From Spirilliplanes yamanashiensis (GTDB lineage Bacteria; Actinomycetota; Actinomycetes; Mycobacteriales; Micromonosporaceae), in NCBI RefSeq assembly GCF_016863475.1, contig NZ_BOOY01000026.1, forward strand, positions 248,001 to 312,000: a stretch of 64,000 bases of DNA, in the 5' to 3' direction. This document shows positions 11,608 to 26,747 of the stretch, piece after piece. Below the pieces are notes generated by a model. That model had not been told where the DNA came from, did not search any database, and saw only the letters and a list, made by a program, of their open reading frames with translations. The translations under genes were made by a program, and so were the position numbers. Each line of letters opens with the position of its first letter. The stretch's first letter is position 1.

Positions 11608-12543
11608 TCATGCCTCCTGGGTCGTGCGCTGCGTGAGGGGGTAGCCGTAGGCGCGCAGCATCGGCGCGCAGACCGTGCCGACGAGGGCACGCTGGCGGGG
11701 CGGGAGGGCCGACACCCAGGCGTCGTCGCGGCGCAGCCGGATGCGGCCGACGGTGAACCGCATCGGGTTGCCGGCCGCGCTGTGCCCGGGGGTCAGGTCG
11801 GCGTGCCCGTCGCCGAGGAAGGCCAGGTCCGGCTCGGTGACCCGGAGCCCGGCGAACGCCGCCAGCTCGGTCAGCGCCTGCCGGGGCTCGGCCAGGAACT
11901 GCTCGTAGCGCAGCCGCTGCACGGGCACGCCGCGGCGGGCGAGCAGGCCGAACGCGGCGTTGTGCGCGGTCCACAGCAGCGCCGAGTGCCCGGGCGTGTA
12001 GCGGGTCATCTCGTCGGCGTTGTCGGCCTCGGGCCGGGCGACGGTCTTGGTCCACGAGTACGCCACCCCGCGGGCGTCGCGCACCACGTGCACCACCCGC
12101 AGGTCCAGGTCGGACGCCCAGCGCAGGCAGTGCGCGAGCGCGCTGTGCTTCGACGAGTCGACGAGCACCTCGCAGCCGGACACGGCGGCCGCGGCGTCGT
12201 ACACCCGGGTGTAGAACTCGGCGTAGCGGGCCACGTCGGCGGGCGGCCGGCCCCCGGCGAGCCGGGGGATGTGCCGGGTGCGCTCGACGGCGGCCTGCAG
12301 CGCGTGCACCCGCTCGACGTCGACGTTGGCCCAGCCGCCGAAGGCGCGGTCGCCCACCGCGGCCCAGAACGAGCAGGCCGAGAAGCGCTCGCCGCAGCCG
12401 CACCGCTCGTCGTCGACGATGTCGCGTTGCCACAGGTGGACGACCTCGCCGAGGGCGCGGACGCCGGGCAGCTCGCCGAGGAGCCGCTCCACGAGGGTGG
12501 TACCACTTCGTCCCAATCCGCCCAGAAAGAGCACACGTGCCAC
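11608..12543 (-). CDS. PAPS-dependent sulfotransferase
   Basis: This 311-residue protein belongs to the P-loop sulfotransferase superfamily, which moves sulfate from PAPS to a hydroxyl or amine. The 5'-phosphosulfate loop is FLGGLGRSGTTLVERLL (residues 6-22). The 3'-phosphate motif is VVRDARGVAYSW (153-164), with Arg and Ser as expected. A Cys-rich patch CGCGERFSAC (48-57) might hold a metal. The start GTG 12543 matches where homologues begin; earlier GTG (12552) and TTG (12585) starts are possible. It overlaps functionally with the GT2 gene (1-bp gap) and is divergent from the WecG-type gene. A glycan acceptor is inferred from the neighbourhood. Confidence 0.85.
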   Translation of the reverse strand: MARVLFLGGLGRSGTTLVERLLGELPGVRALGEVVHLWQRDIVDDERCGCGERFSACSFWAAVGDRAFGGWANVDVERVHALQAAVERTRHIPRLAGGRPPADVARYAEFYTRVYDAAAAVSGCEVLVDSSKHSALAHCLRWASDLDLRVVHVVRDARGVAYSWTKTVARPEADNADEMTRYTPGHSALLWTAHNAAFGLLARRGVPVQRLRYEQFLAEPRQALTELAAFAGLRVTEPDLAFLGDGHADLTPGHSAAGNPMRFTVGRIRLRRDDAWVSALPPRQRALVGTVCAPMLRAYGYPLTQRTTQEA

Positions 12544-12578: not shown

Positions 12579-12605
12579 GAGGCAACGGGCGCGGGAGGTG
12601 CTGTG

Positions 12606-13394
12606 GTGACGATCGACGCTTTCAGCCGGATCGAACTGGACGGGACGGGCTTCGACCGGGTGACGGAGGACGAGGTGGTGGCCATCGTCCGGCGCGCCAT
12701 CGAGCGCGGCGACGGCGGCCGGATCATCACCCCGAACGTCGACATCCTGCGCCAGGCCCGGCACGACGAGCAGGTTCGCGCCTACCTGGCCGAAGCCGAC
12801 CTCGTCGTCGCCGACGGCATGCCGCTCGTGTGGGCCAGCAAGCTGTCCGGCACCCCGCTGCCCGAGCGGGTCGCCGGCTCCAGCCTCATCTGGTCGCTGT
12901 CCGAGGGCCTCGGCCGCGACGGCCGGTCCGTCTTCGTGCTCGGCGGCAACCTGCCCGACCCGGTCACCGGCGAGCTCGACGGCGCCACCCGCGCCGCCGG
13001 GCGCCTCGCCGCCGCCAGCCCCGGCCTGCGCATCGCCGGCTGCCTCAGCCCCGAGCACGGCTTCGAGCGCGACCCCGCCACCTTCGCCGCCGTCTGCGCC
13101 AAGGTCGTCAAGGCGCGCCCCGACATGGTCTACGTCGGGCTCGGCTTCCCCAAGCAGGAGTGGGTCGTCACCCGGCTGCGCGAACTGCTGCCGCGCAGCT
13201 GGTTCATCGGGTGCGGGGCGGCCGTCAACTTCGTCGCCGGCGACTGCGACCGGGCCCCCGCGTGGATGCAGCGCAGCGGCCTGGAGTGGGCGCACCGGCT
13301 CGGCACCGAGCCCGGCCGCCTCGCCAAGCGCTACCTGCGCCACGACGCGCCGTACGCGCTGCGCCTCCTGGCACAGGCGACGGCGCGCCGCTGA
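12606..13394 (+). CDS. WecG/TagA/CpsF-family glycosyltransferase
   Basis: This 262-residue GT26 enzyme typically adds the second sugar (such as ManNAc or ManNAcA) to an undecaprenyl-linked GlcNAc, starting a cell-surface polymer. Landmarks are the TPNVDILRQAR segment, ADLVVADGMPLVWASK with the proposed catalytic Asp, YVGLGFPKQEWVV, and the C-terminal GCGAAVNFVAG with RAPAWMQRSGLEWAHRL, the part that associates with the membrane in TagA. The start GTG 12606 has GGGAGG 7 nt upstream; GTG 12603 directly before it is equally in frame. It is divergent from the sulfotransferase. The enzyme that makes the first lipid-linked sugar is not in the window. Confidence 0.9.
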   Translation: MTIDAFSRIELDGTGFDRVTEDEVVAIVRRAIERGDGGRIITPNVDILRQARHDEQVRAYLAEADLVVADGMPLVWASKLSGTPLPERVAGSSLIWSLSEGLGRDGRSVFVLGGNLPDPVTGELDGATRAAGRLAAASPGLRIAGCLSPEHGFERDPATFAAVCAKVVKARPDMVYVGLGFPKQEWVVTRLRELLPRSWFIGCGAAVNFVAGDCDRAPAWMQRSGLEWAHRLGTEPGRLAKRYLRHDAPYALRLLAQATARR

Positions 13395-13400
13395 CGCCGG

Positions 13401-14420
13401 CTAGGGGGTGACCGCGAAGTACGGGTCGCGGGTCAGCGCCTCGAACGCCTGCCACGCGGGCGGGTCGTCGACCAGCCGGAACTGCTGCTTCGGCCCGTTC
13501 CCGTCCGGGTTCGACTCGAAGTACACGACGGCCTTGATCTGCGGGTTCGCCTTGAACGTGCGCACCGCGTCGGTGATCCACTGCGCCCGGCCCGCCGAGC
13601 CCCACGCCTTCGCGACCCCGAACTCGCCGACCACGATCGGCTTCGGGTGCTGCGCGGCGAACTCCAGGAACGGCTTCATCAGCTCGCCGATCGGCTTGAA
13701 CGAGTTGCCGGCGTACACGTCGACGCACGTCCAGTCGACCTGGTCGTCGCCCGGGTAGAAGGCGGGCGCGTCGCCGCGCATGAAGCCCTCGGCGGTCGGG
13801 CACCACACCCAGCTCACGTTCGTGACCCGCTCCTCGGCGAAGATCCGCCGGATGTACTTCCACGACGCGATGTAGTCCGGCCCCGACCACATCTCCGCCC
13901 GCAGGTTCGGCCGGTCCATCTCCCACCGGATGCGCACCATCATCGGGTTGCCGGCCGCGCGGATCGCCCGCGCCTGGGCCCGGATCTTGTCGTCGTGCTG
14001 ACCGTCCACGATGGACCGGGTGTCGCCGGTCGCCCAGCTCACCATCAGCGTCGTGCCGCGGCGCAGGAACTCCATGTCCGACTCGGTGCCGACGGGCTGC
14101 TCGAACCGCTTGTACGTGTTCAGGATCGCCAGCCGCCGCCCCAGGTTGGCCTCGACGGCGTCGATCGCCTCGAGCCGCCCCGGCTGCGTCAGCTCCACCG
14201 GCTTCACCCACGCCCCGAAGTACGCGCCCCGCGCCGGCGCGGCCACCGGCCCGGCCCGGAACGGCCCCGGGTTCACGGCGATGCCGTCGGGGCTGGAGGT
14301 GAGGTCGGGCGACGGGCTGGGCGACGGCTCCGGCCGCGGCTCGGGCGAGCTGCTGCACCCGGCGAGCGTGAGCGCGGTGGTGGCGAGGGCGGCGAGAGCA
14401 ATGCGGACGATCGGCTTCAC
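13401..14420 (-). CDS. GH26-like secreted lipoprotein (beta-mannanase fold)
   Basis: This is a 339-residue lipoprotein: short signal, lipobox LTLAGC (Cys 22), a Ser/Pro-rich linker to about residue 65, then a TIM-barrel domain resembling glycoside hydrolase family 26. The presumed acid/base Glu is in IRWEMDRPN (E167) and the nucleophile Glu in VVGEFGVAK (E266), both present. The barrel contains DWTCVDVYAGN, typical of these proteins. It would sit on the outer face of the membrane and trim or modify a surface glycan. The start is GTG 14420. It follows the six-gene minus-strand polysaccharide operon but is separated from it by two hairpins. It is convergent with the WecG-type gene, 6 bp apart. 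Confidence 0.82.
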   Translation of the reverse strand: MKPIVRIALAALATTALTLAGCSSSPEPRPEPSPSPSPDLTSSPDGIAVNPGPFRAGPVAAPARGAYFGAWVKPVELTQPGRLEAIDAVEANLGRRLAILNTYKRFEQPVGTESDMEFLRRGTTLMVSWATGDTRSIVDGQHDDKIRAQARAIRAAGNPMMVRIRWEMDRPNLRAEMWSGPDYIASWKYIRRIFAEERVTNVSWVWCPTAEGFMRGDAPAFYPGDDQVDWTCVDVYAGNSFKPIGELMKPFLEFAAQHPKPIVVGEFGVAKAWGSAGRAQWITDAVRTFKANPQIKAVVYFESNPDGNGPKQQFRLVDDPPAWQAFEALTRDPYFAVTP

Positions 14421-14433
14421 GCCCGGTACAACG

Positions 14434-14512: not shown

Positions 14513-15253
14513 TCAGTGGGCGACGCGGCGGGCCACGTAGACCACGTCGACGGCCCAGCGGCCGAACAGGTGCACGCCGACGGTGTCGAACGCCTTGGCG
14601 AGCGGCTTGAGCCAGCGGCGGTCGTACCAGCTCTGGGTGACCATCGAGAAGCCGCGGCGCTCGATGACCTCGAAGCCGTGCCGGTGCAGCAGGGCCTCGA
14701 CGTCGGCGTGCGACAGCTCGGCGAACCAGCGGTTGCTGTCGTGCTTGCGGGCCCGCAGGTGGCGCAGGCTGCCCGCGTTGCCGTGGTTCTCCACGACGAG
14801 CAGGCCGGCCCGGGCGTCCGGCAGGGCCTTGGCGGCGAACGCGATGGCCCGGTCGCGGACGGCGTCGTCCACGTTGAGCAGCAGCCGGAACATCGTCACC
14901 ACCGCGGGGTGGCCCGCGTCGACCGGGGCCGGCACGGGGCCGTCCGGGTCGACCTGGTGCCAGTGGGCCCGGGAGCCCACCTCGTCGGCCTTCGCCATCA
15001 TCTCGGCGGAGGTGTCGTAGCCGTGCGCGTCGCGGACGGCGCCGTGCAGGGCGCGGATCGCCCGGCCGGTGCCGCACGCGAAGTCGTGCTGGACGGGCTT
15101 GCGGTCGCCGAACCGGCGCTGCACCAGGGCCCGCAGCCACGCCTTCTGGCGGCGGTTGATGTCGGAGGCGTAGCTGCCCGGCGCGTACGTGATCGTCTCG
15201 TACTTCTCGACCGCGTCGACGTCCTGGAACACCTCGGTGTACTCCGTCGTCAC
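14513..15253 (-). CDS. SAM-dependent methyltransferase
   Basis: This 246-residue class I methyltransferase has the SAM-binding motif HDFACGTGRAIRAL (residues 56-69), then YDTSAEMM (acidic loop region). The C-terminal part with LSHADVEALLHRHGFEVIERRGF resembles small-molecule and sugar methyltransferases. GTG 15253 is the start: GAGGAG stands 6 nt upstream, and it overlaps the flippase stop (GTGA). It is the last gene of the coupled six-gene run, so methylation of a sugar or lipid intermediate of the glycan is a reasonable inference. Nothing in the sequence fixes the acceptor. Confidence 0.85.
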   Translation of the reverse strand: MTTEYTEVFQDVDAVEKYETITYAPGSYASDINRRQKAWLRALVQRRFGDRKPVQHDFACGTGRAIRALHGAVRDAHGYDTSAEMMAKADEVGSRAHWHQVDPDGPVPAPVDAGHPAVVTMFRLLLNVDDAVRDRAIAFAAKALPDARAGLLVVENHGNAGSLRHLRARKHDSNRWFAELSHADVEALLHRHGFEVIERRGFSMVTQSWYDRRWLKPLAKAFDTVGVHLFGRWAVDVVYVARRVAH

Positions 15254-16860
15254 GTTGTTCTCCTCGGGTTGTGGTTTCGTCGGGTGAAGTCGGCGAGGGC
15301 GAGCGGCCCGCGCAGCCACCAGGCGGCGGCGGCGTACAGCGGCGCGCCCAGGGCGAGGGAGACGGCGAGCGGGCCGGCGCCCACCCCGGCCACGGCGACG
15401 GCGGCGGCGGGCAGCGCGCCGAAGCAGGCCAGGGCGAGGCCGGCGGCGGTCAGGGTGCCGCGGCCGAACGGGTGCAGCCCGATCGCGCGGTGCACCTGGG
15501 CCAGCGGCACGAGGTTGTTGACGGTCATGGCGACGGCCAGGCCGATCGCGGCGCCGAGCGCGCCGTGCCGGGGGATGAGCAGCACGTCGAGGACGACCGT
15601 GACGGCCAGCGCGAGCAGCACGTTCCACAGGTTCCAGCTGGTGCGCCCGCCCATGGCGAGGACCATGTCGACCATGCCGCAGCCGGTGGCGACGAGCATC
15701 GCGCAGGCGAGCACGGCCACCACGGGCGCGCCGGCCACGTAGGCGTCGCCGAACACGGCCAGGTAGACCGGGGCGAACGTGAGCACCAGCAGCAGCACGG
15801 GCCAGGTGGCGAGCACCAGCCAGCCGGTGGCGGTGCGGTAGAGCCGGTTCGCCGCGGCGGTGTCGCCGACGGCGAGCGCCTCGGCGAGGCGGGGCTGCAC
15901 GGACTGCGAGATGCCCTGGTTGGCGAACTGGACGAGCACGACGAACCGGCCGGCGACGGCGTACACGGCGGCCGCGGCGAGCCCGCCGAGCGCGGCGACG
16001 AGCAGCACGTCGATGCGCTGCAGGGCGAGCTGGGCGACGCTGGCGACGGCGCGCGGGCCGGTGAAGCGCCAGAACTCGCGGCGCAGCGCGTCGCGCTCGA
16101 CGCGGCGGCTGCGCCCGGCGCCGGCGCTGCCCACCCGGTGGATGCGGCGCAGGGCGACCGCGGCGAGCGCGGCGACGGGCACGTACGGGGCGGCCCAGGC
16201 GAACGCGAACGCGGACAAATCGACCACGGTCGGGGTCCACAGTGCCATCGCCGCCAGCGCGCCGACGGCGGCCAGCTGCAGCGCCGAGCGCAGGAACCGC
16301 TCGTACGCCACGGTCGGGCGCATGGCCCGGTAGCCGCGGGTCGCCGTGAGCAGCGCGTCCGCCAGCGCGGCGACCGGCAGGAACACGGCCAGCGCGCGCA
16401 GGCCCGCCGTGTGCTCACCGAGCACCGCGGCCGACGCCCCGCCCGCGGTCAGCCGGGCCAGCGGCTCGGCCGCGGCGAACATCGCAGCGCCCAGCACCGT
16501 GGCCGCCACCGCGACCGGCACCAGCCCGGTGCGCAGCGCGGCGCCGAGCAGGGCGGAGCGGCCGGTGGCGCGCAGCCGGGCCGGCCAGTAGACCAGCCCG
16601 GTCTGCGTGCCCAGCTTGGCGACCCCGCCTACCAGCACGAACGCGGCGGTCGATGCGAAGAACGCCCCGGCGTGCTCGGCGCCCAGCCCGCGCGCCACCA
16701 GCCAGGTGACGACCACCCCGGTCGCCCCGGCGAAACCCGCGCCGACCAGGTTGGCGAGGCCGCCGCGCGCGACGCCGCGGTCCGCCGCGGGCGCCGGAGG
16801 ATCGGCCGGGGACGCGGCCGGGACCGGCGGAACGGTGGCGCGGCCGATCGCCCGCGTCAC
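15250..16860 (-). CDS. Polysaccharide flippase (Wzx/MOP-type)
   Basis: This 536-residue polytopic protein has about 12-14 predicted membrane helices, starting after a roughly 40-residue Pro/Ala-rich cytoplasmic head. The first helix segment (LVGAGFAGATGVVVTWLVARGLG, about residues 38-60) and the central FANQGISQSVQPRLAEALA loop are typical of the MOP/RfbX family that flips undecaprenyl-linked oligosaccharides to the outer leaflet. The start GTG 16860 overlaps the sulfotransferase stop, and its own stop overlaps the methyltransferase start (both GTGA). In a Wzx/Wzy-type system it would act between cytoplasmic assembly and the ligase/polymerase encoded two genes upstream. Confidence 0.88.
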   Translation of the reverse strand: MTRAIGRATVPPVPAASPADPPAPAADRGVARGGLANLVGAGFAGATGVVVTWLVARGLGAEHAGAFFASTAAFVLVGGVAKLGTQTGLVYWPARLRATGRSALLGAALRTGLVPVAVAATVLGAAMFAAAEPLARLTAGGASAAVLGEHTAGLRALAVFLPVAALADALLTATRGYRAMRPTVAYERFLRSALQLAAVGALAAMALWTPTVVDLSAFAFAWAAPYVPVAALAAVALRRIHRVGSAGAGRSRRVERDALRREFWRFTGPRAVASVAQLALQRIDVLLVAALGGLAAAAVYAVAGRFVVLVQFANQGISQSVQPRLAEALAVGDTAAANRLYRTATGWLVLATWPVLLLVLTFAPVYLAVFGDAYVAGAPVVAVLACAMLVATGCGMVDMVLAMGGRTSWNLWNVLLALAVTVVLDVLLIPRHGALGAAIGLAVAMTVNNLVPLAQVHRAIGLHPFGRGTLTAAGLALACFGALPAAAVAVAGVGAGPLAVSLALGAPLYAAAAWWLRGPLALADFTRRNHNPRRTT

Positions 16861-17735
16861 CGGCGCCAGATCGGGGGGTGTCCCAGCCAGGTGGCCAGCC
16901 GCTCGTCGTGCGGCGCGAAGTGCTCCGTCAGCTCCCGGCGCAGGTCGTCGTCCATGTCGGCCTGGCGCGGGCGGGCGTTGTGCCGCTCGAACGCCGGCCG
17001 CTCCAGCACCGGCAGCCCCAGGAACGCGCACACCTCGTCGTACACGGCCTCCGGCTCGGCGAAGAACCGCTCGCTCTCCACCACGTGGATGCGCTCGCGG
17101 CCCAGGTGCCCGGCCATCGCGGACAGGTAGCGGGCGTACTCGCCGCGGCCGCGGTAGGCGTGGTGCTGGTGGGCGAAGCTGTAGTGCCGCGGGTCCGCGG
17201 CCAGCCGCTCCTCCTGCTTGTGCAGCCGGGCCGCCTCCAGCGCCAGCGCGGCCCGGAACGACGTCTCCCGCTCGAACCCGCGCGCCACCTCGTGGTGGTG
17301 CTGCGAGTACGCCCGCTCCACCGGGTCGCGCACCAGCACGAGCACCTTGGCGTCCGGCAGGTCGCGGGCGATCCGGCCGGACGCCTGCGGGTGGTACATG
17401 TAGTACGGGCTCGACTCGAACGTCTGCGCCGGCACCCCGTAGCGCTGGCCCACCTTCGTGGCCGTGCGCTGCAGCGGGAAGTGCGCCCTGTACCACCCCA
17501 TGCCGCGGTCGTACGACGTGTCGAAGTAGTGCACGCCCTTGTGCAGCACCGCCTTGAGCACCACCGGGTGCTGGGCGAGCGCCCGGTACAGCGACGTGGT
17601 GCCGCAGCGCTGGCCGCCGCAGATGAGGAACGACGGGGTCATCCGGGCCGGGGCGGTCAGCCGCCCGTACGACCGGGACCCCAGGTGGACGACCCGCTTG
17701 ACCGGGCCGGGGACCTTGCGGACGTCGACCTTCAT
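16857..17735 (-). CDS. PAPS-dependent sulfotransferase (carbohydrate type)
   Basis: This 292-residue protein is close to the heparan/NodH-like carbohydrate sulfotransferases. The 5'-phosphosulfate loop ICGGQRCGTTSLYRAL (residues 38-53) and the 3'-phosphate motif VLVLVRDPVERAYSQ (131-145) are complete. The Y/H-rich segment HHHEVARGFE follows as in sugar sulfotransferases, and a Glu near ESSPYYMY could be the acceptor-site base. It has no signal peptide, so it works in the cytoplasm before export. The start ATG 17735 overlaps the stop of the kinase-like gene (ATGA), and its stop overlaps the flippase start. Its place just before the flippase suggests sulfation of the lipid-linked unit. Confidence 0.88.
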   Translation of the reverse strand: MKVDVRKVPGPVKRVVHLGSRSYGRLTAPARMTPSFLICGGQRCGTTSLYRALAQHPVVLKAVLHKGVHYFDTSYDRGMGWYRAHFPLQRTATKVGQRYGVPAQTFESSPYYMYHPQASGRIARDLPDAKVLVLVRDPVERAYSQHHHEVARGFERETSFRAALALEAARLHKQEERLAADPRHYSFAHQHHAYRGRGEYARYLSAMAGHLGRERIHVVESERFFAEPEAVYDEVCAFLGLPVLERPAFERHNARPRQADMDDDLRRELTEHFAPHDERLATWLGHPPIWRR

Positions 17736-18976
17736 GCGGCCTCCCCCTCGAGCGACGCGACTTCGTTGATGAGTACGGGCAGCAGCCAGGTGCCCAGCAC
17801 GCCCAGCCGGGCGCCCGCCTCCGCCTGCCGGTCCGCGAGGTAGCGGGTGGCCAGGTCGACGAGGTAGAGCAGCGCGGTGAGCCGGTACCCGGCCCGCGGC
17901 ACGTCGAACGGCTTGAGCAGCTCGGGCGCGCGGCGCAGGGTGGCGGCGACGGCCTCGCCCGCGTCGGCGGTGGTCTGGATGCGCTTCTGCAGCTCGTAGT
18001 GCACGGCGTCGAAGCCGGCCGGCACGCCGCGGGTGAAGCGCTCCCAGTCCCAGACGAGCACGGTGTCGACGAGGTTCGCCATGTTCCACGGGGCCCAGTC
18101 GCCGTGCCAGGCGCCGTACCGCAGCTCGACGTCGCCGGCCCGCTCGACGAGCTGTGCGGCGGCCCGGGCCAGCTCCGCGCCCTCCGACCGGTCGGCGACG
18201 GCGGCCAGCCGCGAGCGCAGCTGCGCCCAGTACGGGCTGGTGGCGAGCCGGCCGCGGGACCAGCCGCACGCCCCGGCGACCTCCAGCATCGCGGCGGCCA
18301 GGCGCTCCGGGTGCAGCACGGCGCGCGGCCGCCACACCGGCAGCGCCGATTGCACCAGCACCTGCAGGCCGCGCCACTGCCCGGCGTGCAGCACCCCCGG
18401 CGTGGTGACCCGGCGCAGGTCGACGTGGCCGAGCGCGGTCAGCGCCGCCGTCTCCGCGCGGACCAGCTCGTGGGTGAGCGGGCCGGTGCCGAGCTTGGCG
18501 AAGCCGAACGTGTCGCCGTCGGGGGAGATGAGCTGCAGCACCGGCTTGCGGTTGGCCCGGGCGGGCCCGATGTGGACGCTGACCGCCAGGTCCCGGCCGA
18601 GCTGCTCGCGCAGGTAGCCGTCGATCGTCCCGCCGGCCGGGCCGGTGATCCGGATCCGGTCGCGCATCAGCACGGACGACGCGCCGGTGCGCAGCGCCGC
18701 CACGACGGCGTCGCGCTTGAACCGGGCCACCCGGGACTGCGGCTCGGCGTACCGGCGCACGGCCGCCGCGGAGATCCGCTTCGACCGGGTCGGCACCAGC
18801 AGCCGCGGCCGGTGCGTGTCGGGCACCACCAGGTACTCGGTGACCATCTCGCCCGCCGTGCCGTCGGTGGCGCACGGCGGCGGGTACAGCAGGTCGAGCA
18901 CCTCGCGCAGGTACTGCGCGCGCAGGGCGGCGTCCGACGTGGTCAGTGCCGCGGGGGCAGTTCTGACCGGACTCAT
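17732..18976 (-). CDS. APH-like (aminoglycoside-phosphotransferase fold) kinase
   Basis: This 414-residue protein has a kinase-fold C-terminal half. The catalytic loop AWHGDWAPWNMAN (residues 289-301, HGDXXPXN) and the metal-binding VWDWERF (308-314) are intact, and FGFAKLG (K161) is a candidate for the ATP-site Lys. The N-terminal 130 residues are not part of the standard fold and I do not recognise them. Relatives phosphorylate sugars, aminoglycosides, homoserine or choline. In an operon for a surface glycan, a sugar or glycan phosphate is the simplest guess, which is inference only. Both ends overlap neighbours by 4 bp. Confidence 0.75.
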   Translation of the reverse strand: MSPVRTAPAALTTSDAALRAQYLREVLDLLYPPPCATDGTAGEMVTEYLVVPDTHRPRLLVPTRSKRISAAAVRRYAEPQSRVARFKRDAVVAALRTGASSVLMRDRIRITGPAGGTIDGYLREQLGRDLAVSVHIGPARANRKPVLQLISPDGDTFGFAKLGTGPLTHELVRAETAALTALGHVDLRRVTTPGVLHAGQWRGLQVLVQSALPVWRPRAVLHPERLAAAMLEVAGACGWSRGRLATSPYWAQLRSRLAAVADRSEGAELARAAAQLVERAGDVELRYGAWHGDWAPWNMANLVDTVLVWDWERFTRGVPAGFDAVHYELQKRIQTTADAGEAVAATLRRAPELLKPFDVPRAGYRLTALLYLVDLATRYLADRQAEAGARLGVLGTWLLPVLINEVASLEGEAA

Positions 18977-20358
18977 GCGTCCTCCTCCGGTTGGGTCGCG
19001 TTGCGCCAGAGGAGCGCGTACGCCAGGAACATGAAGGCCAGCGGGGTGACCAGGGAGTTGTAGACGAACATCGAGGAGAACGACGTGACGATCGCCGCGG
19101 ACGCGGCGATGCCGGCCGGAGATCGGTCACGCCGGAACCGCCACAGCGCGGACAGGAAGAAGCCGAGGTAGCCGACGGTGCCGACGATCCCGTGCGCGTA
19201 CAGCACCTGCCAGAACTGGCCGTTGCCGCCGACGGTGAAGTTGCCGCAGCGCTCGCAGTCCGCGCTCTCGCCGACGGTGATCGACTGCCGGCCGCCGATC
19301 GTGGCCCGGGTGGAGCCGAACCCGATCACCGGCGACTCGCCGATGCCGTCGAGTGCCCGCTCGATGAGGAACGAGCGCACGCCGTTGGACTTGCCGTTGG
19401 CCATCCGGTCCGACACGACCCCGCCGAGCGGCGTGACCAGCAGCGCCGTGCCCATCGCCAGGCCGGCGACGACCAGGCCGGCGATCATCCACAGCCGGCC
19501 CATCACCGCGTACCGGACGGCCACGAAGCAGGCCGCCACGGCGAGGCCGATCCACAGGCCGCGGTTCAGCGAGTAGATCATCGGCGCGACCGACACGACG
19601 AGCACGGCCAGGCCGAGCAGCTTCGTGCGGGTGCGGGTCAGCTGCCCCCACACCGCCGCGATCAGGAAGCCGACGAGCAGGCAGAAGTTGTTGCCCCAGG
19701 TGTTGGTGTAGCCCCACGGCGCGGCCGGGCGGGGCGCCGGGCCGCCGCCCACGTCCATGATCTGCGCCGCGTACGGGTGCACCAGCGACTGCACGAAGCC
19801 CTTGGTCCGGACGCCCTGCGGCAGCAGCAGCTCCACCGGCGAGGTGATCTCGAACCGGCCGGCGACCATGCCGAGCACGCCGCCCGCCACGGTGACGACG
19901 AACAGCCAGCCGAGCAGCCGGGTCAGCTTCGCCACCGGCAGCTCGGCGCGCCGCAGGTTGCCGGCGTAGACGAGCAGCACGGTCAGCGCCAGGTACATCC
20001 CCAGCCGGTAGGCCACCGCGACGATGCGGCTGGCCGCCGTGCCGGGCACCGTGCCGGCGGGGTCGGCGCCGAGCGCGCCGATGCTGACGACGACGGCGAG
20101 CAGGAACAGCGCCCACCACCCGAAGCCGGGCGGCAGCGTGACCCGCCGGCCGCCCGCCCGCACCCGGACGAGCAGCACGATCATGGGCACGGCGGCGATC
20201 GGGAAGATCAGCACGCCGAGGCCGAGCAGCCACCACGCCGGGTACGCGGCGAGCAGCCAGACGAGCGGCCAGGCGGGCAGGGCCGGCGGCGCGGCCGGCT
20301 GCTCGCTGTGCAGGCCGGCCCGTGCGCGTCGCCGCCCGGCGGAGGCGACGAGGGTCAT
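18973..20358 (-). CDS. O-antigen ligase/polymerase-like membrane protein
   Basis: This 461-residue protein has about 11-12 predicted membrane helices and a large central extracytoplasmic loop. The hallmark of the Wzy/WaaL (PF04932-like) family is the sequence IYSLNRGLWIGLAVAACF followed by a loop ending in the ESPVIGFGSTR segment (about residues 350-362). Members ligate or polymerise lipid-linked glycans outside the membrane. A Cys pair in the loop (ADCERCGNF) may form a disulfide. The start ATG 20358 overlaps the Wzz-like gene's stop, and its stop overlaps the kinase start. Whether it polymerises (Wzy) or ligates cannot be told from sequence. Confidence 0.85.
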   Translation of the reverse strand: MTLVASAGRRRARAGLHSEQPAAPPALPAWPLVWLLAAYPAWWLLGLGVLIFPIAAVPMIVLLVRVRAGGRRVTLPPGFGWWALFLLAVVVSIGALGADPAGTVPGTAASRIVAVAYRLGMYLALTVLLVYAGNLRRAELPVAKLTRLLGWLFVVTVAGGVLGMVAGRFEITSPVELLLPQGVRTKGFVQSLVHPYAAQIMDVGGGPAPRPAAPWGYTNTWGNNFCLLVGFLIAAVWGQLTRTRTKLLGLAVLVVSVAPMIYSLNRGLWIGLAVAACFVAVRYAVMGRLWMIAGLVVAGLAMGTALLVTPLGGVVSDRMANGKSNGVRSFLIERALDGIGESPVIGFGSTRATIGGRQSITVGESADCERCGNFTVGGNGQFWQVLYAHGIVGTVGYLGFFLSALWRFRRDRSPAGIAASAAIVTSFSSMFVYNSLVTPLAFMFLAYALLWRNATQPEEDA

Positions 20359-22145
20359 CGCTTGTCGCGCTGCTTCTTGCGGTCGTTCGCGGCCGCGGCC
20401 AGGTCGCTCAGGTTCATCACGGCGGTCGCGTCCTCGCTGCCGCCCTTCTGGCCCGGCGGGCGCGGCGGCGTGACGGTGCCCTTCTTCGAGCCGTTCGCCT
20501 TCGCGGCGTCGGCCGAGGAGGGCAGCCGCAGCGGCTGGGTGCGCTCGGCGTCGTCCAGCGGCTCGTGCAGCGGCTTCGGGTCCGCGTCGTCGGCGGTCAG
20601 CTCGACCGCCGGGGCGGGCGCGGGCTCCTCGGTGCGCCCGGCGCCCAGCCGCGGCAGCACGACCGCGCCCAGCAGCGGGGTGCCGACCCGGCGCAGCTGC
20701 TCCGCCGCGTCCAGCAGGAACGGGCGGCGGGCGCGGCGCAGCTCGACGGCGAGGATGGCGGCGTCGGCCAGGCTGGCGAGGCTCTGCGCGTCGGCGCCGG
20801 AGCTGGTCGACGGGGCCTCGATGACGATGAAGTTGCACTGCCGGCGCAGCGTGCCCAGGGTGTCGCGCAGCCGCTGCGACTGCATGAGCCCGGCCGCGGT
20901 GGCGGCGCCACCCGTGGTGATGACCCGCAGCGACGGCACCCGCGGCGCCTGCTGCACGGCCTCGCCCAGGCTGACCCGCCCCGCGAGCAGGTCGGACAGG
21001 CCGGGGGTGGCGCTGACGCCGAGCATCCGGGCCAGCGGCGCCGCGTCGATCATGCTGTCCGGCAGGTGCGCGCCGATCAGCACGACGTCGCTGCCGGTGC
21101 GGGCCAGGGCGGTGGCGAGGTTCGCGGCGACGAGGGTGGTGGCGGTGCCGCGGCTCGCGCCGGTCACCACGATGATCTGGTCGCCGTGGCCGAGGCTGGC
21201 GAGCACCTCGTTGCGCAGGCGGTTGAAGATGCGCCCGCCCGGCCCGTACGGCTGGAGCACGTCGTCGAAGCGCGGCGCGGTGCGCTCGTCGAGGGCGGCC
21301 AGCACGGGCACCCGGCCGCGCTGGCGCACGTCGGCGACGGTGCGGATGCGCCGGTCGAGCCGCTCGCGCAGCAGCGCCAGCGCCAGCCCCAGCAGCAGGC
21401 CGGCCATCACGCCGGTGGCCAGGTTCAGCGTCGGGTTCGGGCTGCTCGGCTTGTCGGGCATCCGGGCGTCGCTGATGATCTGGCCGGGCGTGATGGTGGC
21501 CGTGGTCAGCTCGTTCAGCTTGGCGTAGTTGGAGTCCAGCTGGTTCTGCGCGGTGCGCCGCTGGCTCTCCAGGTTCGGCCGCAGCGGGCTGTCGCCGTCG
21601 GTGCGGGCGATCTGCGCGTTGATGTTCGTCAGCAGGGCGTTGAGCTGCTTGATCTTCGCCTGCAGGGCGGCCGCGTCCCGGTCGAGGATGGCCCGGGCGC
21701 TGGACTCGCGGTTGCGCAGGTACGCCTCGGCGAACGCGTGCGCCGCGGCCTGGGCGCCCTGCGGGGAGTCGCCGGTGTACGCGATGACCAGCACGGTCGT
21801 GTTCGCGGGCACCTCGACGGACACGGGCTTGGCCAGCTCGTCCGCGGTGAGCGGGGAGCGCAGCAGCTGCTTGGCGCCGTTGGCGACCGCCGTCGAGCGC
21901 ACCAGCTGCGCCTCGGTGTCGAGGTTGATGTCGCCCTTGGTGCGCCCGCCGGAGGCGTTGGTGTCGGTGCCCGCGGGGGACACCAGCACCGACGCCGCCG
22001 AGCGGTACACCTTCGGCTGCGTGCCGGTGAAGGCGACGGCGCCGGCGGCGCCGATGCCGACGGCGAGGACGAGGATCCACCAGTGCCGGCGGAGCATCCC
22101 CAGGTACTGGGACAGGTCGGTGGACACCGGACGAGTCGCATCCAT
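20355..22145 (-). CDS. Wzz/BY-kinase-like chain-length protein with a degenerate nucleotide site
   Basis: This 596-residue protein has the layout of fused Wzz and bacterial tyrosine kinase proteins: TM1 (about 22-42), a Wzz extracytoplasmic domain with a coiled coil (about 150-215), TM2 (about 242-260) and a cytoplasmic ATPase-like domain. The ATPase motifs have lost key residues. The P-loop region is TGASRGTATTL (328-338) without the Lys; Walker A' is VVLIGAHLP (355-363) without the two Asp; the Walker B Asp is Glu in FIVIEAP (439-445). The C-terminus has no Tyr cluster and ends in a basic run. It probably controls chain length without being a kinase. It is the first gene of the coupled operon. 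Confidence 0.85.
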   Translation of the reverse strand: MDATRPVSTDLSQYLGMLRRHWWILVLAVGIGAAGAVAFTGTQPKVYRSAASVLVSPAGTDTNASGGRTKGDINLDTEAQLVRSTAVANGAKQLLRSPLTADELAKPVSVEVPANTTVLVIAYTGDSPQGAQAAAHAFAEAYLRNRESSARAILDRDAAALQAKIKQLNALLTNINAQIARTDGDSPLRPNLESQRRTAQNQLDSNYAKLNELTTATITPGQIISDARMPDKPSSPNPTLNLATGVMAGLLLGLALALLRERLDRRIRTVADVRQRGRVPVLAALDERTAPRFDDVLQPYGPGGRIFNRLRNEVLASLGHGDQIIVVTGASRGTATTLVAANLATALARTGSDVVLIGAHLPDSMIDAAPLARMLGVSATPGLSDLLAGRVSLGEAVQQAPRVPSLRVITTGGAATAAGLMQSQRLRDTLGTLRRQCNFIVIEAPSTSSGADAQSLASLADAAILAVELRRARRPFLLDAAEQLRRVGTPLLGAVVLPRLGAGRTEEPAPAPAVELTADDADPKPLHEPLDDAERTQPLRLPSSADAAKANGSKKGTVTPPRPPGQKGGSEDATAVMNLSDLAAAANDRKKQRDKR

Positions 22146-22289: not shown

Positions 22290-23744
22290 GTGGACAGGCG
22301 GGAGAGCCATCGGCGACGGTTGACGACGACGGTCGTCACCGCGCTGGCGGCCGCCCTCGTCGCGCTGGTCGCTACCGCCCCCACCAGCGGCGCGGCGTTC
22401 CGGTCGACCGGGGCGGCGACGTCCGCCGCCTTCGCCGCCCGGGCGTCGTTCGGGCTGATGCAGACCGCCCCGTGCTTCAGCCGCGACGGCTCCGGCGGCT
22501 GCACCGCCGCCATCGGCGTCACCCAGGGCGAACACGTCGCCGTCAGCCCCGACGGCGCCCACGTCTACACGGCGTCGAAGGCCCTGTCGGCCGTCGCCGC
22601 GTTCACCCGGGAGCCCGCCGGGGGCGCACTCACCCAGCTCGCCTCACCGAACGCCTGCGTCACCAACGGATCCATCACCGGCTGCACCACCGTCGTCGGC
22701 CTCGGCGGCGGCGTCTTCGACCTCGCCGTCAGCCCGGACGGCAAGCACGTGTACGCCACCGGCTACACCAGCGACGCCGTGGCGGCGTTCAGCCGCCACC
22801 CCACCACCGGCGTGCTGACCCAGCTGGCGGCCCCGAACCGGTGCGTCACCAGCGGGTCGATCACCGGGTGCAGCGCCGCCGTCGGCCTCAACGGGGCGAA
22901 CGGCATCACGATCAGCCCGGACGGCGCGCACGTCTACGTGGCCTCGTACGACGCCAGCTCGCTCGCGGTGTTCGCCCGCGACGCCACCACCGGCGCCCTC
23001 ACCCAGCTCGCGGGCACCGCCGGCTGTGTCACCGACACCTCCGCCCCGATTTCCGGCTGCGCCACCGCCCGGGGGCTGCGCAACCCCTACTTCCTGCACG
23101 CCACCCTCGACGGCACCGGCGTGTACGTCGCCGGGTACGGCAGCAACGCGATCAGCGCCTTCGTCCGCAACCCGGGCACCGGCGCCGTGACCCAGCCCGC
23201 CGCGCCGAACGCCTGCGTGTACAACAGCGCCAGCACGGCGATCGCCGGGTGCACCGCCGCGACCGGCCTGCTGGGGACGTACCACGTGCAGGTCGCCGCC
23301 GACGGCACGACGGTCTACGCGGCCGGCTACGACGGCAACACCCTGGCCGCGTTCGGCCGCGACCCCGCGACCGGCGTGCTCACCGCCATCGGCTGCCACT
23401 ACAACAGCGGCAGCACCGCGGTGGCCGGGTGCACGAGCACCCTGGCGCTGGCGGCGCCCACCGGCGTGGCCGTCAGCCCGGACGGGCGGTCGGTGTTCGT
23501 GTCGGCGTTCACCAGCGGCGCCGTCGCCATGTTCCGGCGCGACCCCGGCACGGGGCTGCTCACCCAGCGGCCCGGAACGGACGGCTGCATCGCGGCCGCC
23601 GTCGCCGGCTGCACGACCGGCTCGGGGCTGTCACAGCCGCTGGGCCTGACCGCGAGCCACGACGGGCGCGACGTGTACGTCGTCGGCGGCAACTACAGCG
23701 GCCAGGGCGCGGGCTGGGTCACCGCGCTGAACGTCAACCACTGA
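22290..23744 (+). CDS. Secreted beta-propeller protein with paired cysteines
   Basis: This 484-residue protein starts at GTG 22290 with GGAGG 5 nt upstream. A basic stretch and a hydrophobic segment (about 13-35) ending near TSGAAF form a signal peptide or anchor. The rest is about six to seven repeats of roughly 65 residues. Each has VSPDGXHVYXA, AVAAFXRXPTTGXLTQL, then a Cys pair (CVTNGSITGC type) separated by 8-13 residues. This is a seven-bladed YVTN/lactonase-like propeller in which the Cys pairs could form one disulfide per blade, suited to an extracellular place. No catalytic residues are recognised. It is divergent from the polysaccharide operon and convergent with the APS-kinase gene, so glycan binding is a guess. 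Confidence 0.8.
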   Translation: MDRRESHRRRLTTTVVTALAAALVALVATAPTSGAAFRSTGAATSAAFAARASFGLMQTAPCFSRDGSGGCTAAIGVTQGEHVAVSPDGAHVYTASKALSAVAAFTREPAGGALTQLASPNACVTNGSITGCTTVVGLGGGVFDLAVSPDGKHVYATGYTSDAVAAFSRHPTTGVLTQLAAPNRCVTSGSITGCSAAVGLNGANGITISPDGAHVYVASYDASSLAVFARDATTGALTQLAGTAGCVTDTSAPISGCATARGLRNPYFLHATLDGTGVYVAGYGSNAISAFVRNPGTGAVTQPAAPNACVYNSASTAIAGCTAATGLLGTYHVQVAADGTTVYAAGYDGNTLAAFGRDPATGVLTAIGCHYNSGSTAVAGCTSTLALAAPTGVAVSPDGRSVFVSAFTSGAVAMFRRDPGTGLLTQRPGTDGCIAAAVAGCTTGSGLSQPLGLTASHDGRDVYVVGGNYSGQGAGWVTALNVNH

Positions 23745-23749
23745 GCCCG

Positions 23750-25270
23750 TCAGGCCAGCCGGGGCTCCACCCAGCCGGACTCGATCAGGTACTGGTACAC
23801 CGCGTCCACGGCCTCGTCGACGGCCATCGTGGAGGTGTCCACCACCAGCTCGGCGTCGGTGGGCGCCTCGTAGGGGTCGTCGACGCCGGTCATGCCGCGC
23901 AGCTGCCCGGCGCGCGCCTTGGCGTACAAACCCTTGCGGTCGCGCTGCTCGCACACCTCGATCGGGGTGGCGACGTGGACCAGCACGAACCCGGCCCCGG
24001 CGGTGGCGGCCATCCGGCGGGCGGCCTTGCGCGCCGCCGCGTACGGGGCGATCGGGCAGGCCACCGCCATGCCCCGGTGCCGGCCGACCTCCGCGGCCAC
24101 CCAGCCGATCCGGCGCACGTTGCGGTCGCGGTCGGCGCGGCTGAAGCCGAGCCCGGCGGACAGCTCGCGGCGCACCACGTCGCCGTCGAGCAGCGTGATG
24201 GTGCGGTCGCCGGTCTCGCGCAGCATGTCGGCGAGGTTGCGGGCGATGGTCGACTTGCCGGAGCCGGACAGGCCGGTGAAGAACACGACCAGGCCGCGGT
24301 GCCGGCGCGGCGGGCGGACCCGGACCAGCTCCTTGGCCACGGCGGGCGGGGTGTGCCACTCGGGCAGCGGGAAGCCGCGGTCGAGCAGGTCGTCGATCTC
24401 GGCGGTGGTGAGCGCGACCCGGCGGGAGCGCTCCGGGATGTCGTCGCGCCAGCGCCACTGGCCGTCGCGGTTGTCGTAGGCCAGCTCGCGGGGGACCAGC
24501 AGCTTGACCCCGGCGCCGGACAGCGCGTCGCCGGTGGACAGCAGGTGGGTGACGCCGTACGCGCCGGCCACCCGGGCGCGCAGCAGGGCGTCGCGGATCT
24601 CGTCGCCGCGCGCGGTGAGCGGCACGGCGACGATGGTGGCCGGGGGCATCCGGTCGCGGGCGGCGAACACGGCGCGCACCAGGGCCTCGGGCGGCAGGCC
24701 GTCGGGGCCGGGCTCGCTGACCGGCACGAGGATGAGCAGGTGCGCGGCCAGCGTGCGGGCGGCGTGCGCGATCTGGGCGAGCTGCGGGCGGTGCAGCGGC
24801 CGGTCGGCGACCACGCCGAGCACCCGGCCCGGGGGCAGCAGCGCGCGGACCTCCTCCGGCGTGCGCCGCAGCCGCATGAAGGGGCCGTGGCCGCCGTCGC
24901 CGATGCGGCGCACCGGCCCGGCGACGCCCGCCACGCCGTCGCGGGTGGGCCAGACGTCGGTGACGTCGAGGGCCGCGATCGGGGCGCCCTCGGGGTCGGC
25001 GAGCACGACCGTGCGCCGGGCGGCGTCCTGCGGGTCGAGGCCGGCCGCGAGCTCGGCGGGCACCTCGAGGGTCACCGGCGCGGGCCACGACGTGCCGTCC
25101 GCGAGCCGGCCGCGGCGGCGCAGCTCGGTGAGGTCGGCCCGGCCGAGGAAGCCGGTGAGGGGGGCGTACGCGCCGGAGAGGATCAACTCGAGGTCGGTCA
25201 GCTCATGCGCGCGCGGGGTGTACGACGGCGCGTCGCGCAGCACGTCCTCGGGCAACAGCGACCCACTCAT
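23750..25270 (-). CDS. cysC: APS kinase fused to a degenerate ATP-sulfurylase domain
   Basis: This 506-residue protein has two parts. Residues 325-506 are a complete APS kinase: P-loop FFTGLSGSGKSTIA (330-343), DGDVVRRELSAGLGFSRADRDRN, and the YAAARKAARR substrate segment. They convert APS to PAPS. Residues 1-310 have an ATP-sulfurylase fold, but the catalytic QXRNPXHXXH motif reads VADRPLHRPQ (154-163), losing the Gln, Arg, Asn and second His, and the GRDHAG-like segment is GVTHLLSTGD. The domain is probably not a working sulfurylase. The start ATG 25270 follows no strong ribosome-binding site. PAPS is the donor for the two sulfotransferases nearby, so it fits as the dedicated PAPS source, with APS made elsewhere. 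Confidence 0.85.
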   Translation of the reverse strand: MSGSLLPEDVLRDAPSYTPRAHELTDLELILSGAYAPLTGFLGRADLTELRRRGRLADGTSWPAPVTLEVPAELAAGLDPQDAARRTVVLADPEGAPIAALDVTDVWPTRDGVAGVAGPVRRIGDGGHGPFMRLRRTPEEVRALLPPGRVLGVVADRPLHRPQLAQIAHAARTLAAHLLILVPVSEPGPDGLPPEALVRAVFAARDRMPPATIVAVPLTARGDEIRDALLRARVAGAYGVTHLLSTGDALSGAGVKLLVPRELAYDNRDGQWRWRDDIPERSRRVALTTAEIDDLLDRGFPLPEWHTPPAVAKELVRVRPPRRHRGLVVFFTGLSGSGKSTIARNLADMLRETGDRTITLLDGDVVRRELSAGLGFSRADRDRNVRRIGWVAAEVGRHRGMAVACPIAPYAAARKAARRMAATAGAGFVLVHVATPIEVCEQRDRKGLYAKARAGQLRGMTGVDDPYEAPTDAELVVDTSTMAVDEAVDAVYQYLIESGWVEPRLA

Positions 25271-25463: not shown

Positions 25464-26747
25464 ATGAGACGCCGCGCCCCCCAACCGCACCCCGTCGCCG
25501 TCATCACCCTCGCCGTGACGCTGCTGGTGTCCGGCTCGGTCCTGGTGTTCGCCTCGTTCGCCCAGGACCGCGCGGCCACCGAGGCCCGCCGCGGCCCCGA
25601 CGGCCCCACGGTCGGCTGGGGCCGGCCGATCCCCGGCAGCCCGCCCGCCGCCACCGCGAGCAGGGCGCCGCTGCCCGCACCGTCCACACCGGCCGGCGTC
25701 ACCCCCGGCGCCGCCCCCGGCGCGGACCAGCGGCCCGGCGCCCGGCCCGACGCCGACCCCGGCCCCGAGCCCGGCGGCCGCTGCCGCACCGGCGCCAAGC
25801 TGGTGCCGACGTGCGGCGTGCTGTGGGGCGTCGCGCCGGGCGCGTTCACCGAGAAGCGCGGCGCGCCCGCGCTCGCCGAATTCGAGCGCAAGACCGGCCG
25901 CCACCAGGACATCTACCACGCGTATCACCGCGGGCGCGGCCGGGTCTTCCCCACGCCCGAGGAGATCCGCATCGCCCGGGAGCCCGGCCGCGAGCGCATC
26001 CTGTTCCTCAACTGGAAGCCCGCCGGCGCCACCTGGGCCGAGATCGCCGCCGGCGACCGGGCCACCGACGCCTACCTCGACCGGCTCGCCGCGCACATCC
26101 GGAAGAACTTCCCCGAGCCGTTCTTCTTCACCGTGCACCACGAGGCCGAGGACAACGTCAACGAGCGGGCCGGCTCCGGCTGGACCGCCCGCGACTTCGC
26201 CGCCATGTACCGCCACGTCGTGCAGCGGCTGCGGGCCGGCGGCGCGAGCAACATCGTCAGCGTCGTCGTGCACATGGCGTACGTGCCGCACACCACCCAG
26301 GAGTGGTTCGACGACATGTACCCCGGCGACGACGTCGTCGACTGGATCGGCTGGGACACCTACGCCTACAGCGACCCCGGCTACGGCCACGGCGACTTCA
26401 CCGAGCTGATGAACCGGCGCGCCTCCAGCAAGCCCGACTGGCCCGGCTTCTACGACTGGGCCGTCGAGCGGCACCCCGACAAGCCCCTGATGGTGGCCGA
26501 GTGGGGCGTCTGGTACTCGCCGAAGAACCCCCGGCACAAGGCCGAGTTCTACCGCAACGTCGGCCGGCAGATCACCGAGTTCCCCCGGATCAAGGCGCTC
26601 GTCGGCTTCGACACCCCGCACAACCAGAAGGGCATGGACTCCCGCGTCGACAGCACGCCCGACGCCCTGGAGGCCTACCGGAGGTTGGGGGACCTGCCCG
26701 TCTTCCAGGTGGAGCACGGATCAGGCACGCCCGGGGTTTTCCCCTGA
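25464..26747 (+). CDS. GH26-like secreted or membrane-anchored glycosidase
   Basis: This 427-residue protein has an N-terminal membrane segment (about residues 11-32), a Pro/Ala/Gly-rich linker of about 70 residues, then a TIM-barrel domain akin to glycoside hydrolase family 26. The presumed acid/base is in TVHHEAEDN (E227) and the nucleophile in MVAEWGVWY (E346), both conserved. DWIGWDTYAYS precedes the nucleophile strand as in the other GH26-like protein here. ATG 25464 is preceded by GGAAGGA. A -10-like TATGCT lies at 25434-25439. It faces away from the APS-kinase gene and is the right-hand boundary of the polysaccharide locus. The two GH26-like proteins are clear but distant paralogues. 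Confidence 0.82.
   Translation: MRRRAPQPHPVAVITLAVTLLVSGSVLVFASFAQDRAATEARRGPDGPTVGWGRPIPGSPPAATASRAPLPAPSTPAGVTPGAAPGADQRPGARPDADPGPEPGGRCRTGAKLVPTCGVLWGVAPGAFTEKRGAPALAEFERKTGRHQDIYHAYHRGRGRVFPTPEEIRIAREPGRERILFLNWKPAGATWAEIAAGDRATDAYLDRLAAHIRKNFPEPFFFTVHHEAEDNVNERAGSGWTARDFAAMYRHVVQRLRAGGASNIVSVVVHMAYVPHTTQEWFDDMYPGDDVVDWIGWDTYAYSDPGYGHGDFTELMNRRASSKPDWPGFYDWAVERHPDKPLMVAEWGVWYSPKNPRHKAEFYRNVGRQITEFPRIKALVGFDTPHNQKGMDSRVDSTPDALEAYRRLGDLPVFQVEHGSGTPGVFP

Follow-up and report, generated by a model that had tools for sequence, protein, structure and literature searches.

An ATP-sulfurylase domain fused to an APS kinase is expected to make the APS that the kinase consumes, so what would such a domain do once its catalytic motifs are lost? 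This question is raised by a gene of Spirilliplanes yamanashiensis within the window (the whole stretch of 64,000 nucleotides analysed here), whose open reading frame starts with an ATG at 25270 on the minus strand and has the following layout.

23750..25270, minus strand: APS kinase with an N-terminal pseudo-ATP-sulfurylase, 506 residues (open reading frame and Pfam domains)
24944..25228, minus strand: PUA_2 domain, residues 15-109 (Pfam, 66 bits)
24536..24874, minus strand: degenerate ATP-sulfurylase core, residues 133-245 (Pfam, 50.6 bits, partial)
24782..24811, minus strand: putatively dead motif VADRPLHRPQ, residues 154-163 (in place of QTRNPxHRAH when aligned with intact enzymes)
24515..24538, minus strand: site of the lost GRDHAG loop, STGDALSG, residues 245-252 (alignment with intact enzymes)
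23837..24298, minus strand: APS kinase domain, residues 325-478 (Pfam, 186 bits, full length)

A putatively active kinase joined to a degenerate sulfurylase

An earlier note on this DNA had described the kinase part as complete, and this holds: the Pfam domain is matched over its full length (PF01583, 186.2 bits against a curated cut-off of 21.1), TIGR00455 is passed as well (182.8 bits, cut-off 138.7), and the P-loop, DGD and lid motifs are all found (GLSGSGKS, DGD and TGVDDPYE). Judged by these matches, the protein is an APS kinase and would be active as such. The equivalog model for bifunctional Sat/ApsK enzymes (NF004040) is failed, at 417 bits against a cut-off of 669, and the Pfam ATP-sulfurylase match is split into two stretches, the better of which covers model positions 2-119 of 212.

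We then aligned the N-terminal half with intact enzymes, leaving out three copies of the window gene. Both motif losses named in the note were confirmed: VADRPLHRPQ replaces QXRNPXHXXH, and the GRDH-like motif is gone with its loop, the stretch at the GRDHAG site lacking ~25 residues relative to intact fused enzymes. H160 occupies the position of the first histidine of HxxH. Taking the substrate contacts to be those of the yeast structure, as we assume, H160 is the one contact left: an Asp stands in place of the Arg, and the Gln, Asn and second His, along with the Arg of the loop, are lost as well.

Structure prediction (53 sequences, mean pLDDT 73.3, pTM 0.49) indicated that the sulfurylase fold is kept, with residues 2-260 of the model matching truncated yeast ATP sulfurylase 1r6x (Z 23.6, rmsd 3.1, 253 aligned) and the C-terminal part matching kinase structures (2ofx, Z 24.2, rmsd 3.6, 185 aligned). 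The Entamoeba structure 23VK, discussed below, was absent among the fold-search matches listed, the structure library ending in April 2026. Most of the linker (247-319) falls below pLDDT 50, and therefore we make no claim on pocket geometry. Together, alignment and model suggest an N-terminal half that retains the sulfurylase fold and has probably lost its chemistry. An intact sulfurylase with a variant motif was ruled out, since the loop is lost too and a separate CysDN is encoded in the genome (see below). Persistence of sulfurylase activity through a different set of residues would be compatible with the kept fold; it is very improbable given the loss of both motif and loop, the separate CysDN, and the behaviour of human PAPSS1, in which mutations of the motif histidines reportedly abolished sulfurylase but not kinase activity.

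Spread and constraint within Micromonosporaceae

By NCBI rank, the best 80 named loci all fall within Micromonosporaceae, with 36 from Micromonospora, 24 from Actinoplanes, 12 from Paractinoplanes and the remainder from elsewhere in the family, and we therefore took this as the family of the gene. The protein was matched in 199 of 200 family genomes and in all 44 genera. A single strong PF01583 match was found in 60 of 61 sampled family genomes, the remaining one (G032) having two partial matches near contig ends; any further PF01583 matches across the 61 genomes reached at most 27.5 bits each. CysD exceeded its cut-off in 59 of the 61, the misses being G032 and G050 (in G050 the matches were fragments).

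Both sulfurylase motifs were absent in 42/42 family rows examined, with the P-loop present in 42/42 and DGD in 41/42 (exception, L267). The motif stretch is (I/V/L)ADRPLHRPQ in 80/80 named rows, with the intact motif in 0/80 and GRDH in 0/80, as counted by alignment, because a plain text match picked another PLHR stretch in 14 of 87 proteins and skipped L219 and L227. A sequencing accident, chance or a frame artefact is ruled out by this uniformity.

Individual loci depart from the pattern. The kinase half of L267 (genome G037) looks degenerate too, with DGD changed to DSG, altered lid motifs and a retained P-loop, and this protein is the only PF01583 match above 25 bits in a fragmented genome. 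L265 and L266 (G030 and G056, one genus) share a frame break at the same place, at a C run near residue 209, which is possibly an assembly error.

To estimate selection, named loci were combined into 32 disjoint pairs, whose nucleotide identities ran from 0.875 to 0.977. The lowest dN/dS, 0.090, was that of the linker; the dead core (0.100) and the kinase (0.105) were close to it, and the PUA part stood higher at 0.162. The core is thus about as constrained as the kinase, and the domain is kept in the family by purifying selection rather than decaying.

Graded loss in other actinomycetes

A further search with the N-terminal half for relatives outside the family (E 1e-6) matched 123 of 396 genomes in the phylum sample and 68 of 394 in the class sample, leaving 326 class-sample genomes without a match at this threshold. 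Of the 68, three belong to the family, and the remaining 65 were all fetched. QxRNPxHRxH and GRDH were both missing in 63 of these 65 class-level relatives, and the P-loop and DGD were kept in 63/63; the two intact ones are a fused enzyme (L132) and a sulfurylase whose frame read shows no kinase (L235). The 63 dead forms range from window-like proteins (TREPLHRKQ, TDRPLHHRA) down to forms of ~400 residues, which have MRGPLD or no motif trace and lack most of residues 251-300; class-level lengths (up to 666) are upper bounds, the starts of several proteins being unresolved. One short form is carried by Nonomuraea gerenzanensis, so part of the short group is likely Streptosporangiaceae. At the phylum level, both sulfurylase motifs were intact in 13/13 fused rows compared, which were hand-picked from the matches and are not a census.

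Reduction of the domain to a remnant in other families implies that much of it is dispensable there. Such progressive shortening would be expected if the fusion were a neutral relic, inherited and persisting without function. For the family itself we consider this improbable, and slightly more so than the docking role weighed below, because the domain is retained in 42/42 family rows and its dN/dS over the 32 pairs is the same as that of the kinase, at 0.10.

When 17-residue stretches of the N-terminal half were ranked by conservation over 42 divergent family rows, residues 149-165, which surround the old catalytic motif, came second, and seven of their positions are invariant (P158, L159, H160, R161, P162, L164 and A165). 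This pattern, together with the retention of H160 at the first histidine of HxxH, could mean that the site now acts as a sensor, binding APS, PAPS, sulfate or some other ligand and thereby exerting allosteric control over the kinase, as a mirror image of the fungal enzymes. We regard this as rather unlikely, since most substrate contacts are gone (the Q, R, N and second His replaced, the GRDH loop deleted), the sister families lost the 149-165 stretch too, and its conservation may reflect helix packing alone. The narrower version, in which the pocket became a regulatory ligand site in Micromonosporaceae, within a class-wide actinomycete lineage that otherwise trimmed the domain stepwise, seems a shade less likely again.

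The descent of the dead state was examined with a kinase-domain tree of 64 chosen rows, which gave long-branch warnings. The tree placed 39 of 41 dead actinomycete rows in one group (support 85/98); a weakly supported branch (73/56) has all 41 on the same side. The Thiobacillus denitrificans kinase 3CR8 and L136, from Desulfolutivibrio, grouped with 12 intact fused enzymes (95/89). In the AU test, neither a clade of all dead rows (P = 0.064) nor one with 3CR8 alone (P = 0.059) was rejected at 0.05. The placement of 3CR8 and L136 apart from the actinomycete group suggests that the dead state of that group and of 3CR8 arose by separate losses. The fused protein L136 is encoded on a plasmid of Desulfolutivibrio sulfodismutans; its motif is partly lost (QEATPLHRMH), GRDH is absent, and it seems to represent a further independent decay.

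Sulfate activation and the polysaccharide cluster

If the N-terminal half no longer makes APS, another source would be needed. The 506-residue protein is the sole PF01583 match and the sole PF01747 match in its own 6.5 Mb genome, and the search for a separate cysDN that the earlier note had proposed found CysD and CysN apart from the kinase gene, with one CysD above cut-off on a different contig. The CysD/CysN run (L218:5059-10136, contig C1) includes an exopolysaccharide sugar transferase and a CysQ-like PAP phosphatase, the latter at 86.6 bits, below the equivalog cut-off of 228.8. The 431 residues of CysN cover no more than positions 19-433 of the CysNC model, which has 632, and the protein thus ends without a kinase domain. 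The company of CysDN suggests that sulfate activation in this genome may serve polysaccharide sulfation. Six PF13469 sulfotransferases are encoded in the genome, two of them inside the window, where the kinase gene has these neighbours.

20355..22145, minus strand: Wzz-type chain-length protein (named by sequence reading, with no family-library run; conserved order)
18973..20358, minus strand: O-antigen-ligase-like membrane protein (named by sequence reading, with no family-library run; conserved order)
17732..18976, minus strand: protein resembling aminoglycoside phosphotransferases (APH-like; named by reading; conserved order)
16857..17735, minus strand: sulfotransferase ST2 (PF13469, 57 bits; conserved order)
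15250..16815, minus strand: Wzx-like flippase (named by sequence reading; conserved order)
12603..13394, plus strand: WecG/TagA-type glycosyltransferase (PF03808, 166 bits)
11608..12543, minus strand: sulfotransferase ST1 (PF13469, 48 bits)

Pfam support among the window neighbours covers the two sulfotransferases and the WecG-type and family-2 glycosyltransferases; a Pfam search of the APH-like protein gave no match at E 0.001. Setting aside Micromonospora and the MAG L190 leaves 43 of the 80 named loci, and 40 of those have at least 6.5 kb downstream. The order kinase, Wzz-like, ligase-like, APH-like and ST2, all on the same strand, was found in 40/40 of these, with other genes interposed in Asanoa (L211), and this conserved order bears out the link to sulfotransferases that the note had drawn. 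Enough sequence was available at 23 of the 36 Micromonospora loci, and the cluster was present in one of them. At eight further family loci, it lies downstream in L221, L222, L224 and L227 and on the other side in L223; in L220, L225 and L226 it was looked for and none was seen. The linkage of kinase and cluster is therefore common, though not universal, in the family.

A docking role for the dead domain, by which it would bind CysDN, a sulfotransferase or the polysaccharide machinery and channel APS or PAPS, would fit the tight cluster with sulfotransferase and Wzz-type genes and the position of CysDN beside another exopolysaccharide gene. We consider it improbable, because ADRPLHRPQ is kept in 36/36 Micromonospora rows, yet the cluster is absent beside the gene at 22 of the 23 Micromonospora loci with enough sequence.

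Further genes lie in and around the cluster. A beta-propeller gene (22326-23744, plus strand; Pfam Lactonase, 90 bits) separates the kinase gene from the Wzz-like gene; no copy turned up by tblastn in the 90 neighbourhood loci examined, which suggests a local insertion within the conserved gene order. GH26-like proteins flank the cluster at 25464-26747 (plus strand; Pfam GH26 marginal, 21 bits against 20.2) and at 13401-14429 (minus strand; named by reading), and both were matched in many related loci.

Comparison with known systems

To our knowledge, two published cases join a dead sulfurylase to an active APS kinase; we take the Thiobacillus denitrificans APS kinase of 3CR8 to be Tbd_0210. 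The architecture, which had been put forward as new, is thus already in print for T. denitrificans (3CR8) and Entamoeba (23VK). A PDB sequence search with the window protein returned 3CR8 at the top (329 bits), with fungal ATP sulfurylases, Aquifex 2GKS and 23VK ranking below it.

The T. denitrificans enzyme, reported to lack sulfurylase activity (Gay, Segel and Fisher 2009), shares the two-domain order and is the best PDB match. It differs in its motif (QARQPMHRAQ, against VADRPLHRPQ in the window protein) and in its kinase, which groups with intact fused enzymes apart from the actinomycete group. It is recorded as a hexamer; the window protein was modelled as a single chain. Fungal ATP sulfurylases (1I2D, 1M8P) have the same domain order and fold, but their kinase-like domain is dead and allosteric, the reverse of the window protein, as stated in the Entamoeba paper (PMC13213808). 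Bifunctional Sat/ApsK enzymes (NF004040; Aquifex 2GKS) are homologous to the window protein in both halves, yet their sulfurylase motifs, lost in the window protein, are intact in the 13 fused rows compared.

The Entamoeba histolytica APS kinase (23VK/23VL, 2026; PMC13213808), of which 23VK is the full-length form, offers a function for such a domain. According to that report, an inactive sulfurylase-like domain precedes the active kinase and contacts the kinase of the other protomer; deletion of the domain, or a change at E90 or Y133, lowered kcat by ~21- to 134-fold (PMC13213808). The kcat/KM of the point mutants did not fall, their KM being lower too, and the deletion mutant aggregates, as reported there (PMC13213808). 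The substrate loop is reported as missing there, as in the window protein, but the Entamoeba enzyme is eukaryotic and mitosomal, and the window protein bacterial. Its authors describe the mechanism as unique, with no equivalent contact in TdAPSK (PMC13213808).

We next looked for these contacts in the window protein, anchoring the correspondence of E90 and E94 on the P-loop lysine.

24989..24991, minus strand: codon of E94, the counterpart of Entamoeba APSK E90 (HMMER alignment to 23vk)

This position is Glu in 105/105 dead actinomycete rows, in 16 of 18 intact rows (Asp in two) and in 6 of 15 solo sulfurylases; given its presence in intact rows too, it is not a mark of dead domains. The counterpart of Y133, mapped via Aquifex Y142, is ~G129, and Tyr occurs there in 0/105 dead rows (Gly in 96) and in 13/18 intact rows. 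The mapping is approximate because numbering offsets differ: the E90 counterparts given in the Entamoeba paper are E106 in TdAPSK and K80 in Aquifex (PMC13213808), against E108 and K83 in the chain numbering of our alignment. As the tyrosine is not conserved, the exact Entamoeba contact is not kept, and the full pair (E90 and Y133) is ruled out for the window protein. Residue 348 corresponds to Entamoeba E324; it is acidic (D or E) in 99/105 dead and 1/18 intact rows, a pattern that we set aside because the dead rows are mostly one clade.

A proposed role for the degenerate domain

By analogy with Entamoeba, the dead domain is probably an assembly and activation module for the kinase. In this scheme, CysD and CysN would make APS elsewhere in the cell, the window kinase would convert it to PAPS, and the neighbouring sulfotransferases would spend PAPS on sulfating an exported polysaccharide, the presumed acceptor. 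The sulfurylase fold would be kept as part of an oligomer, pressing on the kinase domain and giving a higher rate or stability, so that activation by the dead domain may be the trait under selection. Points that speak against this role are the lost tyrosine, the undiminished kcat/KM of the Entamoeba point mutants, the aggregation of the deletion mutant, the trimmed domains of other actinomycete families and the damaged kinase half of L267. The earlier note's ideas, that the domain senses APS or PAPS or tethers a sulfurylase, were not singled out by the data, and the published Entamoeba kinetics favour activation of the kinase.

We found no actinomycete case of this architecture in open-licence papers, which is weak evidence of absence as wording varies, nor did that literature yield its class-wide spread, graded loss or selection on the dead domain. 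The analysis adds these three, together with the single strong APS kinase match and separate CysD of family genomes and the gene linkage outside Micromonospora; the architecture and the idea that the dead domain serves the kinase were already in print.

These results have several implications. A label of bifunctional sulfate adenylyltransferase/adenylylsulfate kinase, if applied to such proteins, would be wrong by sequence. The many bacterial proteins found here may be used to test the Entamoeba activation model, and their graded natural series, the shortest of ~400 residues, makes it testable which part of a pseudoenzyme merits keeping, and why. Across Micromonosporaceae, an entire bacterial family, the standard APS kinase is one with a dead sulfurylase attached.
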